A stretch of DNA of 23,641 nt, taken from IMG/VR virus record IMGVR_UViG_3300023115_000100, positions 1-23,641 of that record; one strand, given 5' to 3'. The position numbers and the translations under genes are program-made. Positions 3,721 to 16,895 of the stretch are shown one piece after another. Under the pieces are notes generated by a model. That model searched no databases. It was not told where the DNA came from and saw only the letters and a program-made list of their open reading frames with translations. Numbering within the stretch: the first letter of the stretch is position 1; each line of letters starts with the position of its first letter. Origin of the DNA: a virus.

Positions 3721-3898
3721 CTTCATCTCCTATGTATTCTAGTGAAATTACATCAGTACTTTTAATCTTTGGGTTCATCCATTCCTTGAACTCACAGTGT
3801 ACAGCATAAGCATTATCTATGTCATCTTCACAAAGAATATGAATCCTATCAATTACATAATCATGTATCTTGTATAGGTTTTCTTGTAAAGTTACCAT
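3704..3898 (-). CDS. Hypothetical protein, 64 aa
   Basis: A small acidic protein starting MVTLQENLYKIHDYVID. It has two cysteines and an acidic C-terminus (GDEDGGNV). The ATG at 3898 follows AAGGA at close spacing and lies 38 bases inside the end of the GIY-YIG gene. The 37-aa gene starts inside its 3' end. No recognised domain. Confidence 0.65.
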   Translation of the reverse strand: MVTLQENLYKIHDYVIDRIHILCEDDIDNAYAVHCEFKEWMNPKIKSTDVISLEYIGDEDGGNV

Positions 3899-4310
3899 AG
3901 TCCTTACGCATGTAGCGACCTAGAATATTACTATTATAATAGGCAGGACTTCCGTCGTCAAGTGCTTCTGATAATACATTGTTAAGAAACAATTGTTTTG
4001 TTTCTTCAAAGTTACAATTGCCTTTTGTATCGTGAATACTCAGTATTTCTCTACTGAAGATCTCTTTGCCATACTTTTTTATATCCTCCTTTAATTCTGG
4101 GCAAGAACCATAGTACTTTTTCCAATCTGATTCTTGTTTTACTTTTCTTTTCTTTCCTGGTGGCTTTCTAAAGGACCAAAAGTATTTTCTACCGATGTAC
4201 CGTTTACCTGTTTGTAAATTAGTAATCCTGTAGACAAAACCATACAAATCGTTAATGTCCTCAGATAGAAAAATTCTACCTTTAAAAACCCATGGGTTTT
4301 CATAACTCAT
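3861..4310 (-). CDS. GIY-YIG nuclease-family protein
   Basis: The 149-aa protein shows the GIY-YIG layout: YGFVYRITN at residues 23-31 (GIY half), then GKRYIGRK at 35-42 (YIG half). A conserved basic/aromatic segment follows (ESDWKKYYGS, 60-69), then FSREIL (85-90) and N100-x-E102 near the C-terminal helix, where the family has its metal-binding glutamate. Family members cleave DNA with one metal ion and include T4 homing endonucleases such as I-TevI. No separate DNA-binding domain is seen, so it may be a freestanding homing or host-DNA-directed nuclease; I cannot tell which. It is the first gene leftward from the divergent promoter region. Confidence 0.75.
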   Translation of the reverse strand: MSYENPWVFKGRIFLSEDINDLYGFVYRITNLQTGKRYIGRKYFWSFRKPPGKKRKVKQESDWKKYYGSCPELKEDIKKYGKEIFSREILSIHDTKGNCNFEETKQLFLNNVLSEALDDGSPAYYNSNILGRYMRKDYGNFTRKPIQDT

Positions 4311-4766: not shown

Positions 4767-5116
4767 TGTCACAACAACCAACATTTATCGTAAATCTGTT
4801 AATGTATACAGGTTGCGACTTTACTCAAACATTTGTATTAGAAGATACTCAGTCAAATTCACCAAAGAATCTGACTGGATACACTGCGTGTTGTAAAATG
4901 AGACGCTACGAAACTTCTAGTGAAGCGGGAACCTTTACAGTTGACTTTGGTAATGATAGAAGAGGAGGACGTTTAGAAATTATAATGACAAAAGCAAATA
5001 CTATTAACTTGAAAGCAGGAAAATATTTTTACGATGTCGTACTACAAGATCCTAACAACGAAAGGACAAGAGTCGTTGAAGGAACCATTTTAGTTAAGAG
5101 AGCAGTTACTCGTTAG
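4766..5116 (+). CDS. Probable virion (tail or baseplate) protein, paralogue 2
   Basis: The 116-aa protein is clearly related to its upstream neighbour: DFTQTFVL, NLTGYTACCKMR, FTVDF, GRLEIIMT, KAGKYFYDV and VEGTILV occur in the same order and spacing. It is a diverged tandem duplicate, translationally coupled to the first copy (TAATG). It has a local cysteine pair (ACCK) that the first copy lacks. It converges on the 852-aa minus-strand gene, and the two stop codons overlap (5113-5116) with no terminator between them. Confidence 0.7.
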   Translation: MSQQPTFIVNLLMYTGCDFTQTFVLEDTQSNSPKNLTGYTACCKMRRYETSSEAGTFTVDFGNDRRGGRLEIIMTKANTINLKAGKYFYDVVLQDPNNERTRVVEGTILVKRAVTR

Positions 5117-7671
5117 TTTTGCTTACTTACTGGTCTACCAGCATGTGATTTCTTCCACCAACCATAAGCATCCATGGTATTTGGATCGCTATTTGGATTT
5201 GGAATTATATCTTTAGTGGGATCATCTTCTACTTTTACCCCCTGCCCCTTTCCTTTCTCAGCATCAAGAATATTCTTTGTAGCAACTCCAAGACCTAATC
5301 CAAGTGTTCCAAGGGCAGCAATTTTACCTGCTGTTCCAAGAGGTTTTCTTGGTGGTTTTGGAATGTTTCTACCAGTTACTTGAGTTTTTGGTTTGCCAAA
5401 AACTCTCTTCATGAAACCAGTATTGAATAATCCACCTCTGGTCTGACTGCGAGTGATAGTAGTGGTTCCAGATCTGCCGAAAAGACCTTTTAACTTACCT
5501 GCTTGCCTTAATGCCCAAGGAGCAATTCTTGTTAGTGCTCCAATTCCCTCACAAACGGCATAGAGATCACTATCATAGCTAACACTCTCAGTAAGAGTCA
5601 GTGAAGAAATCACTTTCTCAGCAAGTTCTTCATCTTCAAGAGTCCAGAATTGAATAGTCTCATCAATAGTGTATCCACTCTTCAGCATAGCATCAGAGGT
5701 CTCAAGTACAAACTCTTCAAAAGTCTTCATTGAGAATGTATTTTTTCTTGGTTTTGGATTTGCTTTTTCCGCCTTTCTCTTAGCAACAATCTTATCATAC
5801 TGAGACTTAGTTACCAAATTCATTGCTGCTGGATTATCCACAACAACAGCAGTTCCTGCCTTATTCAATTTAAAAGAAGCAGTTTGCTGCTTATTTTTAA
5901 GATTATTCGCAGTGTTCTGAACCTGCTGTTGATTTACTCTAGGTCTTTGTGCTGGTGGTTTCATGGTCTTATTAAGGACCTTAGTAGCAAGTCCTCTAGC
6001 ACCTGCGTAACCAGCAATACCGCCAGCAATACCACCAAGAGCACCGCCTATCAGAGCCCCCTTAGGACCTAAGAAAGAACCAATCTTTGCTCCAAGTGCG
6101 AGACCTGCCTTAGCACCTGCCCATCCGCCAGCTGTTCCCGCACCGACCTGTGCGGCAGTTCTCTTAACTGACTGACGCTTAGAATATCCAGCGTCTCTAG
6201 CATCTTTGTAGGAAAGTCCAACATCTGCGATAGCAGCAGCAGGACCAGCAACACGACCAATACCACGGAGAGCACCTTTGACGCCCTTAACAGCAGGTGA
6301 AGATGGTTTATATGAGTAAGATCCTCTGCGACTGGTTGTAAATCCTGTTTGTGTACGCAAGTCACGAAAAGTCATTTTCTGACCTTGTGACTGAGGTTTG
6401 GTAGGTGATGGTTTTGCTGGTGGTTGAACGAAATTAGTTTGACTTGAAGTGACTCTAGCAGCACCTGTTGGTTTGGTAGGTGATGGTTTTGCTGGTGGTT
6501 GAACGAAATTAGTTTGACTTGAAGTGACTCTAGCAGCACCTGTTGGTTTTGAAGGTGCTTGAGTTGTTGGTGGAGTTCCTAAATTTAAAGTTTGTGAAGT
6601 TTTTGTCTTTGTCAGAGTGGCAGTTCCACCCTGAGAAGTACTAGGTTGTGTTGGAGTGCTACCGCTGCCACCACGACCACTACCAGTACCAGAACTTGGT
6701 TTGCTGCTAGATGGTGCTGTACCACCAGCAGACGGTGGTCTTTGAGCAGCAGGAGCATTGAACGCCCTTTTTAAAGCACGTCTTCTAGCATCCTCCAACG
6801 ACTTAAATGCCGCTTCACGTCTTGCAGTTTGTGGAACAATATCTTTATAACGACTAGTCATAGACTTATAAGTCTTTCTGACTTTGCTTCTTGCTGGTTT
6901 ATCACCAGCAGCTGCTCTACTCACAAGATCATCAACAGTCTTTGCTGATTGTCCTGGATTTTTTACACCACGTTTTGATGGATTATAATCAGCATCGCCA
7001 TATCCCCTAGTTACACTTCTAGTAGCATAAGTTTGAATACCTTTTGCTGTTGGTACTCCAGATTGTCCGATATAACCTCTTACACGACCTTTCTTAAAGG
7101 TTTTTAGTTGTGCTGCTGTAGGTGGTTTATTTACTGCTGCTCTTTTTCGCTCCAACTCTGCTCTGCGGGATTTTAAAGCTTTGGAAACTTCTGCTTGCTT
7201 AACTCCTTTTGGTTTCTCTACTGCTCTAGTCGCTTGGCGATATTTTTTTCCAGTTCCAGGTTCTGCACGTTTACCGACCATCGTTTCCTCTGGACCAGAA
7301 CTTTGTGCTGCTTGAAGTTCTGCAGATCCACCCTGATTTTTTAAAAGAGTGTCTTTAACTTGTTGTCTTTTTTCTTGCTCTTGTGCAGTTTTGATTGCTT
7401 TTTTAGAACTACCGAAATATACACCAGATTCTGGTTTACTTGATGTAGCAACAACTGATGGTTTTGTAGATTTGGCAGATTTCCAAAGACCTATAATCTC
7501 ATCAGAAGAAAGTGGTTTTCTTGCTGTATCAAGTCCTCTACGAATTCGTTGAGAAGAAAGTGATGATGTTTCTGGTCTAGCCTGACGCTGCAATTTCTTT
7601 TTGTCAGCATCAGATACAGGAAACGCTTCTTCTTTTATATTTTCAGTAATAAATTTCCTAAACGACTTCAT
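5113..7671 (-). CDS. Large basic modular protein with T4-type capsid-targeting N-terminus; probable packaged virion protein
   Basis: The 852-aa protein begins MKSFRKFITE, which fits the T4 internal-protein capsid-targeting sequence and its gp21 cleavage rule (I-x-E, cut after residue 10). Residues 11-310 are highly basic and probably disordered. Residues 310-430 are rich in P, S, T and G and contain an exact 25-residue tandem repeat. Residues 455-570 hold a glycine/alanine-rich hydrophobic stretch (for example GALIGGALGGIAGGIAGYAG at 538-557) that resembles a glycine zipper. Residue 648 starts a second targeting-like segment (MKTFEEFVLE), and 785-797 is another glycine-rich hydrophobic run. 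A late promoter lies 28 bases before the ATG. No enzymatic domain was seen. Packaging is inferred from the N-terminus, the promoter and the basic composition. Confidence 0.8.
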   Translation of the reverse strand: MKSFRKFITENIKEEAFPVSDADKKKLQRQARPETSSLSSQRIRRGLDTARKPLSSDEIIGLWKSAKSTKPSVVATSSKPESGVYFGSSKKAIKTAQEQEKRQQVKDTLLKNQGGSAELQAAQSSGPEETMVGKRAEPGTGKKYRQATRAVEKPKGVKQAEVSKALKSRRAELERKRAAVNKPPTAAQLKTFKKGRVRGYIGQSGVPTAKGIQTYATRSVTRGYGDADYNPSKRGVKNPGQSAKTVDDLVSRAAAGDKPARSKVRKTYKSMTSRYKDIVPQTARREAAFKSLEDARRRALKRAFNAPAAQRPPSAGGTAPSSSKPSSGTGSGRGGSGSTPTQPSTSQGGTATLTKTKTSQTLNLGTPPTTQAPSKPTGAARVTSSQTNFVQPPAKPSPTKPTGAARVTSSQTNFVQPPAKPSPTKPQSQGQKMTFRDLRTQTGFTTSRRGSYSYKPSSPAVKGVKGALRGIGRVAGPAAAIADVGLSYKDARDAGYSKRQSVKRTAAQVGAGTAGGWAGAKAGLALGAKIGSFLGPKGALIGGALGGIAGGIAGYAGARGLATKVLNKTMKPPAQRPRVNQQQVQNTANNLKNKQQTASFKLNKAGTAVVVDNPAAMNLVTKSQYDKIVAKRKAEKANPKPRKNTFSMKTFEEFVLETSDAMLKSGYTIDETIQFWTLEDEELAEKVISSLTLTESVSYDSDLYAVCEGIGALTRIAPWALRQAGKLKGLFGRSGTTTITRSQTRGGLFNTGFMKRVFGKPKTQVTGRNIPKPPRKPLGTAGKIAALGTLGLGLGVATKNILDAEKGKGQGVKVEDDPTKDIIPNPNSDPNTMDAYGWWKKSHAGRPVSKQN
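6395..6544 (-). repeat. Exact 75-bp tandem duplication within the 852-aa gene
   Basis: Two adjacent 75-base units (6395-6469 and 6470-6544) are identical, and the first five bases recur again at 6545-6549. Each unit encodes 25 residues of proline-rich linker containing TGAARVTSSQTNFVQPPAKP. Identity at every silent position shows that the duplication is recent or being homogenised. The length is a multiple of three, so the frame is kept. Confidence 0.95.
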
Positions 7672-15557: not shown

Positions 15558-16895
15558 TTACGATTTCCTTATCTTATATTTATTTATAAATGCGATTCCG
15601 CTAGACATAGCGCCTGGAACCATTGATTCAACATACTTTCGGTGAGCATCAGTTCCAATTAAACGTTGATTTGCGGGGACACCAGAACGAGTAGTTCCAT
15701 TGACAACTGCTTCGGTTACATCCTTAATCCATGCCTTAAACATAATCTTATCCTCAGTAACACAGATAAGATGATTAGCACCTCTACGAACAATACGACC
15801 AACCAATCCAGTATTGAGATTCTCCACCAATTCACCAATACGGAAAATTGCTTTACTTACATAATTTTCACGAAGAGTATCTTGGTCAAACTTAGGTGCC
15901 ATCTCCCAGATACCCCACTCCTCGTTGATACCCATCGACATTCTTGTGGTATCAAAAAGTTGCTTTGCTTCTCTGCGAGGGAAACCCTCAGGCATAGCAG
16001 ACATAAAAGTTTTGAAATCGTTCTCGGAAGCAGCAAGTCTCAATCGAGACGCAGACATCCCTTCAACTCCATCAGCATCAGGGTCTCTATCACCAGCAGA
16101 AACGACCTCAACATTGTCGAACTGATACAGAGAACCATTATAGTTATTAGCAAGTTTATCAAACTCCTTTACTCTATCGGCACCACCAACAATTCTTACA
16201 TTGGTGTATCCATCATTATGTGCTTTCTTTAAAACGTCAAAAATAGTTCTAGTATTCTGATCATTCTGAATTCTTGAACTATGCTGGGGAAACATCCCTC
16301 TCATAAATGCTACCTTTGTATCAGCATCCAAAGGATTCTTTTTAGGATCATTTGAACGTGAAGGTACAATCATATAATCACTTCCGTCTGCTTCAGCAGC
16401 AGAGGCAGCAGTATCCATTAACTGTTGGTGACCAGCATGTGGAGGATTAAATCTACCAAAAGCAATGGTCAAAGTTCCTTTTGTTTTGGGCACAGGAGGT
16501 GGACCTGCTTTTAAATCTGGACTCTGAAGTTGAGACTGAACAGCATCCGCTTGTACTGCCTGTTGTTCTATCTCCTTTTCAGCAGCAACAGCATCCATCT
16601 CATCTGCTTGTGCTCTCAGTTCATCAGACGATGGTTCGGATGCGGGTTCTTGTTGCTTAAGTGATGGATCTGTAAAGTTTGGATCTGAGATATTCTTTTC
16701 CAGTTCAGTTTGGTCAGGATCTCCCTTACCAACTTGCTGTCTCTTATTATAAAACTTTAATCTTCCCTTTTCTGTTTTGGCGACAAACTCTTTGGTGGTT
16801 CTATCATACCATCCACCATGCCCGTCTCCTTCAAGACCAAGACGTGCTGCCTGCTGCGCTGCAGATTCACTAAGAAATTGGAAAAAACTTTTCAT
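15558..16895 (-). CDS. HxGH nucleotidyltransferase with T4-type capsid-targeting N-terminus
   Basis: The 445-aa protein begins MKSFFQFLSE, matching the T4 capsid-targeting layout with a gp21-type site (L-S-E) after residue 10. Residues 55-135 are a P/Q/E-rich linker. The catalytic domain has GRFNPPHAGH (147-156, the HxGH signature), IVGGAD (235-240) and GMSASRLR (279-286, equivalent to the ISSTxxR motif). This places it in the nicotinamide-nucleotide adenylyltransferase/cytidylyltransferase superfamily; the substrate cannot be told. Residues 350-400 (GELVENLNTGLVGRIVRRG and on) look like a small SH3/KOW-like beta domain. The ATG overlaps the 71-aa gene stop (ATGA). Packaging in the head is inferred. 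Confidence 0.85.
   Translation of the reverse strand: MKSFFQFLSESAAQQAARLGLEGDGHGGWYDRTTKEFVAKTEKGRLKFYNKRQQVGKGDPDQTELEKNISDPNFTDPSLKQQEPASEPSSDELRAQADEMDAVAAEKEIEQQAVQADAVQSQLQSPDLKAGPPPVPKTKGTLTIAFGRFNPPHAGHQQLMDTAASAAEADGSDYMIVPSRSNDPKKNPLDADTKVAFMRGMFPQHSSRIQNDQNTRTIFDVLKKAHNDGYTNVRIVGGADRVKEFDKLANNYNGSLYQFDNVEVVSAGDRDPDADGVEGMSASRLRLAASENDFKTFMSAMPEGFPRREAKQLFDTTRMSMGINEEWGIWEMAPKFDQDTLRENYVSKAIFRIGELVENLNTGLVGRIVRRGANHLICVTEDKIMFKAWIKDVTEAVVNGTTRSGVPANQRLIGTDAHRKYVESMVPGAMSSGIAFINKYKIRKS
15581..15588 (-). promoter_or_regulatory. T4-type late promoter inside the 3' end of the nucleotidyltransferase gene
   Basis: The minus strand reads TATAAATA 38 bases before the ATG of the 508-aa gene, within the last codons of the upstream gene. 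It would let the 508-aa gene be expressed late, independently of read-through. Confidence 0.75.

Follow-up and report, generated by a model that had tools for sequence, protein, structure and literature searches.

Packaging tags in T4 and candidate tags in cyanophages

In phage T4, the internal proteins IPI-III and Alt carry an N-terminal capsid-targeting sequence (CTS) in which residues 4 and 7 serve targeting, residues 8 and 10 serve processing, and cleavage occurs at L/I-X-E (PMC9026906). Alt, a large packaged protein, is cut at ITE-6 and LTE-619 (PMC5694885). Among cyanophages, the enzyme NMNAT has been detected in virions of S-SCSM1, with the authors allowing for carry-over during purification (PMC9602691), and, as T4-GC190, in virions of S-SM1 (PMC3037559). 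Among the papers listed by literature searches, no title or abstract opening describes such a tag in cyanophages, and in the library searched the terms "capsid targeting sequence" and "cyanophage" appear together only in a review of T4.

The window analyzed here is a stretch of 23,641 nucleotides (positions 1 to 23,641 of IMG/VR record IMGVR_UViG_3300023115_000100) that looks like part of a marine cyanophage, with an NrdB that shares 89% identity with its counterpart in Synechococcus phage S-SKS1. On its minus strand, a single open frame (5113-7671) encodes an 852-residue protein that begins MKSFRKFITE (7642-7671) and contains a similar decapeptide, MKTFEEFVLE, in frame at residues 648-657 (nt 5730-5701, by translation). 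An earlier note, written from this sequence, held that the internal copy is the closer of the two to T4, and identity counts agree (6/10 versus 5/10 for the N-terminal copy, against the T4 decapeptide MKTYQEFIAE quoted in that note); the stretch from Met648 to the C-terminus is 205 residues long, as it had estimated. It went on to propose that two tagged proteins had been fused or that an internal start yields a second tagged product. Two parts can be told apart in the protein, each a gene of its own in nine contigs: A (residues 1-643; 5743-7671, minus) and B (residues 644-852; 5113-5742, minus). Part A includes a hydrophobic glycine-zipper region (residues about 466-566; 5974-6276, minus), identified from hydropathy and weak glycine-zipper matches, and, in fused members only, a linker of ~70 residues (5743-5961, minus) that occurs in two divergent types. 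A stretch of ~25 residues, PTGAARVTSSQTNFVQPPAKPSPTK, stands twice in tandem in the body of A (approximately 6384-6549, minus).

The N-terminus of A resembles the T4 CTS. All 15 members for which the start is in hand begin MK[ST][FY], with F or Y at residue 4 and F, Y or L at residue 7, so that the key targeting positions are hydrophobic or aromatic throughout; residues 8-10 read IxE in 13 of the 15, including the window, and FNE in L008 and L025. Profile comparisons hint at the same likeness: three of ten A N-termini matched PHROG profiles of internal head or virion proteins at E 0.07-0.22, below significance (counts that leave out L036 and L040, whose fragments began 20-21 codons before MKSF). 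The matches to the T4 internal head families PHROG 2667 and 8111 had E values of 0.07-0.54. For PHROG 2667, 8111 and 8765, the likeness is in register over the first 20-30 residues (E 0.07-0.22, not significant) and does not extend beyond the tag. Unlike the T4 CTS, the Met648 copy lies inside its protein, with V as its eighth residue; the likeness of A-B to T4 proteins ends at the tag, and the A-B family is known from genes alone.

Cyanophage NMNAT (T4-GC190) starts with the same kind of tag as A in all seven named cyanophages examined (MK[SNR]F), and the window's own cytidylyltransferase/NMNAT-like protein (15558-16895, minus) starts MKSFFQFLSE. Unlike A, NMNAT is a folded enzyme, and the sequences behind the two tags are unrelated. 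The NMNAT N-terminus is a candidate for a packaging tag, here on an enzyme reported in virions. The NMNAT-like gene of S-SKS1 (72012-73234) gives a two-piece match and stays open for only 111 residues from the tagged start, so the S-SKS1 record seems to be frame-broken there.

The distribution of potential protease sites differs between A and B. In the bodies of eight A proteins, chosen from 12 and related to each other, [LI]xE occurs twice against 8.8 expected (0.7% of 1,000 shuffles were as low) and [LIV]xE four times against 14.9 expected (none of 1,000 shuffles as low), while the reversed motif occurs about as often as expected (9 versus 8.9). In B, [LI]xE is enriched (17 versus 7.5 expected in five sequences), and in 16 other window proteins it is neutral (54 versus 54.7 expected). 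We read this pattern as a sign that the A body is exposed and has been cleared of protease sites, whereas B is folded; because the sequences are related, it is no more than suggestive. The L-T-E that the earlier note had marked at residues 693-695 (5587-5595, minus) is indeed present, and L-[TS]-E recurs in each of the nine rows aligned, whether from fused or from separate proteins; its conservation fits a prohead-protease site or just a conserved helix end. Cuts at ITE-10 and the putative LTE-695 would parallel the two in T4 Alt. Packaging of the A-B product via its N-terminal tag is plausible.

Fused and separate forms of A and B

Scans of viral contigs recovered 16 contigs with B, plus one (L028) in which A is followed by a different gene. 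A and B form one open frame in seven IMG/VR contigs (L002, L003, L004, L005, L008, L009 and L025), eight with the window, of which L002, L003 and L004 are near-copies of the window. They are two genes in nine (L027, L029, L030, L031, L032, L036, L037, L040 and L041), where B invariably starts 1-18 nt past the A stop. A Shine-Dalgarno core (AGGA or AGGAGG) lies 5-8 nt before B in five measured split contigs; L036, L037 and L040 likewise have such a core before B, and L041 has AGGA at 10 nt. An assembly frameshift as the source of the split state was rejected because nine contigs agree and ribosome-binding sites are present. The separate B of L027 is homologous to the window C-terminus (BLASTP E 6e-11; hhalign probability 98%), and the gene order nrdB, A, B, two opposed LtfC-like genes and GIY-YIG is kept to the contig ends. 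Phage records annotate relatives of the GIY-YIG-like protein (3861-4310, minus, in the window) inconsistently, some as "NAD synthetase" and others as "GIY-YIG endonuclease".

The two genes share a frame in five of the nine split contigs and differ in frame in four. In the five (L032, L036, L037, L040 and L041), a single stop codon and 9-18 nt separate them, so loss of that one codon would join A and B, and read-through of it would yield an A-B fusion protein in these contigs as well.

The proteins at the same place in S-SKS1 and S-T4 show no detectable kinship, nor does the gene after A in L028. Searches of the "phages" collection turned up nothing related to the fused protein, to its C-terminus, to A or B as separate proteins, or to the junction segment, and GTDB contigs likewise gave no relative. 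Pfam gave no match above its cut-off for the fused protein or the C-terminus, NCBIfam gave none above cut-off, and a PDB sequence search gave none below E 0.3.

Phylogenies place the fused members on one side of a branch, with high support for the B domain (100/99), the glycine region of A (97/98) and GIY-YIG (98/98) and weak support for LtfC (68/64) and NrdB (43/52); L036 and L040 were left out of the A tree, and the trees are not firmly rooted. It is likely, then, that A and B are two adjacent genes, separate in relatives, that merged in one clade. The loose rooting leaves room for the opposite course, in which the fused gene is ancestral and was broken in the split relatives. On the LtfC tree, however, split L027 stands apart from the other split members L029-L032 (100/99), so the split state occurs in two lineages and the fused state in one clade; L028 has a different gene after A; and fission would require each split B to have acquired, at one and the same position, its own start and ribosome-binding site. 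Parsimony favors fusion as the simpler reading, and we regard fission as distinctly improbable.

The decapeptide at the junction

The earlier proposal that two proteins were fused is borne out for the genes themselves, by the nine split contigs, the homology of B and the single fused clade, but finds no support for the decapeptide as the former tag of B. A separate gene corresponding to the C-terminal ~205 residues does exist, as the note had suggested checking; its product begins MYYNY, and MK[ST]F opens none of the separate B proteins. In a nine-row alignment, Met1 of B falls opposite residue ~644 and Met648 opposite Tyr5 of B, though the register at the extreme end is uncertain because a gap of four would align the two methionines. 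Conservation of the motif, on which the note had also staked its reading, is lacking: three of the eight fused proteins (L008, L009 and L025) have Phe at the Met648 site and read FSPLEEYILE in place of MKTF and what follows. These observations together argue that the decapeptide is not the old N-terminus of B.

Measured against the T4 CTS, the decapeptide shares Phe at both targeting positions, 4 and 7. It sits at residue 648 of 852 rather than at an N-terminus, and its positions 8-10 read V-L-E in the window, with I-L-E found only in the relatives that have Phe for Met648. As the earlier note observed, no Shine-Dalgarno core precedes Met648; its argument that this absence favors fusion is weak, since the start of the 852-residue frame also lacks a core.

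A structure model of residues 638-852 was built from nine sequences. Although the model is poor outside residues 648-731 (mean pLDDT 47.9), that segment (5479-5730, minus) is predicted, with moderate confidence (block pLDDT mostly 67-82), to contain five helices, the first spanning residues 648-664. The motif thus opens the first helix of B, which might account for the retention of E652 and E653 among fused members and of L656 across all nine rows, with or without tag-like letters around them. The B model had no BFVD match at E ≤ 0.001, and in a second look at 98 PDB chains none reached a Z of 5. The decapeptide is most likely a resemblance peculiar to one allele, in the opening residues of the helix predicted first in B.

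The motif is nevertheless unusual. The pattern MK[ST][FY]xx[FYL][IVLF]xE appeared in none of 20,000 shuffles of the 852-residue protein, so its likeness to a tag goes beyond chance composition, for which a reading as resemblance only does not account. A six-frame scan with a looser pattern, covering the window, 200 of the 208 kb of S-SKS1 and all of S-SCSM1, found Met648 to be the sole match deep within an open frame: the seven others, all within 29 residues of a frame start, comprise two N-terminal matches in each of the three sequences and a further one in S-SCSM1 in a 56-residue frame cut by the stretch end. A codon-degenerate scan of IMG/VR found the motif in 11 stretches and placed it internally only in the A-B family; beyond near-copies of the window gene and L005, the rest are N-termini of an acetyltransferase-like protein. 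This is a single motif chosen post hoc, and relatives indicate that it is allele-specific. Acetyltransferase-like proteins begin MKTFEEFLFE in L013 (6052-6430) and MKTFDEFLTE in S-CRM01 (139045-139440), and in two phages, S-SCSM1 (44215-44535 of contig L053) and S-SKS1 (112701-113009), a small hypothetical protein adjoining the large terminase gene has MKTFKQFMSE or MKNFKQFLSE at its start.

The DNA around the junction looks mosaic. Over 5658-5761, the window and L005 differ at one of 104 nt; across the 3.4 kb in which the two align, at 76% identity, no other near-exact stretch is as long. In the DNA for residues 464-519, L005 matches L009 at 99-100%, yet its linker is of the window type. The 104-nt island, seen in one pair only, could reflect either a recent exchange at the junction or constraint there.

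This island, surrounding the motif, is one of several observations that could be explained if the decapeptide were a second working tag. After the fusion, the first helix of B may have acquired a face like that of a capsid-targeting sequence, by evolution in place or by recombination, so that the scaffold core would hold the long protein at two places. The two Phe residues at the T4 targeting positions and the shuffling result point the same way, as do matches of the Met648 fragments of the window and L005 to an internal virion protein profile, in register (2/2, E 0.19-0.20), where their Phe-type counterparts (0/2), B N-termini (0/3) and control fragments (0/8) gave none. Those matches are not significant on their own, however; known tags work from the N-terminus; T4 processing requires L or I at position 8, where this copy has V; and the motif is missing from three of the eight fused proteins. 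We therefore consider a second tag quite unlikely. Alternatively, ribosomes may also begin at Met648, releasing a separate, tagged, 205-residue B: the ATG is in frame, would create a tag-like N-terminus and lies in DNA that is near-identical in L005. The replacement of Met by Phe in three of the eight fused proteins speaks against such a start, as does the lack of an upstream Shine-Dalgarno core, though the frame's own start is equally without one, and we judge it highly improbable. A combined version, in which fusion created an internal packaging signal at the junction through reshaping of the first helix of B, and a ~100-nt cassette bearing it spread between phages, giving two-point anchoring in the prohead core or a short product from Met648, also seems unlikely.

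Probable fusion and putative packaging in the A-B family

The explanation we favor, and consider probable, is that A and B merged, that the product is packaged in the head via the N-terminal tag of A with B as its C-terminal domain, and that Met648 marks a likeness only. Gene A encodes a large protein of low complexity that bears a capsid-targeting-like tag at its N-terminus and contains a glycine-zipper region; the product of gene B is small, with a helical domain at its N-terminus and also a glycine-rich hydrophobic segment. In the window lineage, the A stop would have been lost and a linker of ~70 residues would have arisen, making B the C-terminal domain of A, if the direction of change is as we infer. 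The entire product is probably drawn into the prohead core by its N-terminal tag; there, by analogy with T4, a gp21-type protease would clip after ITE-10. Separate B has no such tag, and once fused to A would ride on that of A, while MKTFEEFVLE would be the start of the first helix of B, come to resemble a tag in one allele.

Uncultured relatives within one phage group preserve the separate as well as the fused state of these genes, together with the junction between them. The N-terminal tag is common to the A family and a cyanophage enzyme known from virions. If this tag is a capsid-targeting sequence, ten residues could predict which cyanophage proteins are packaged and injected.
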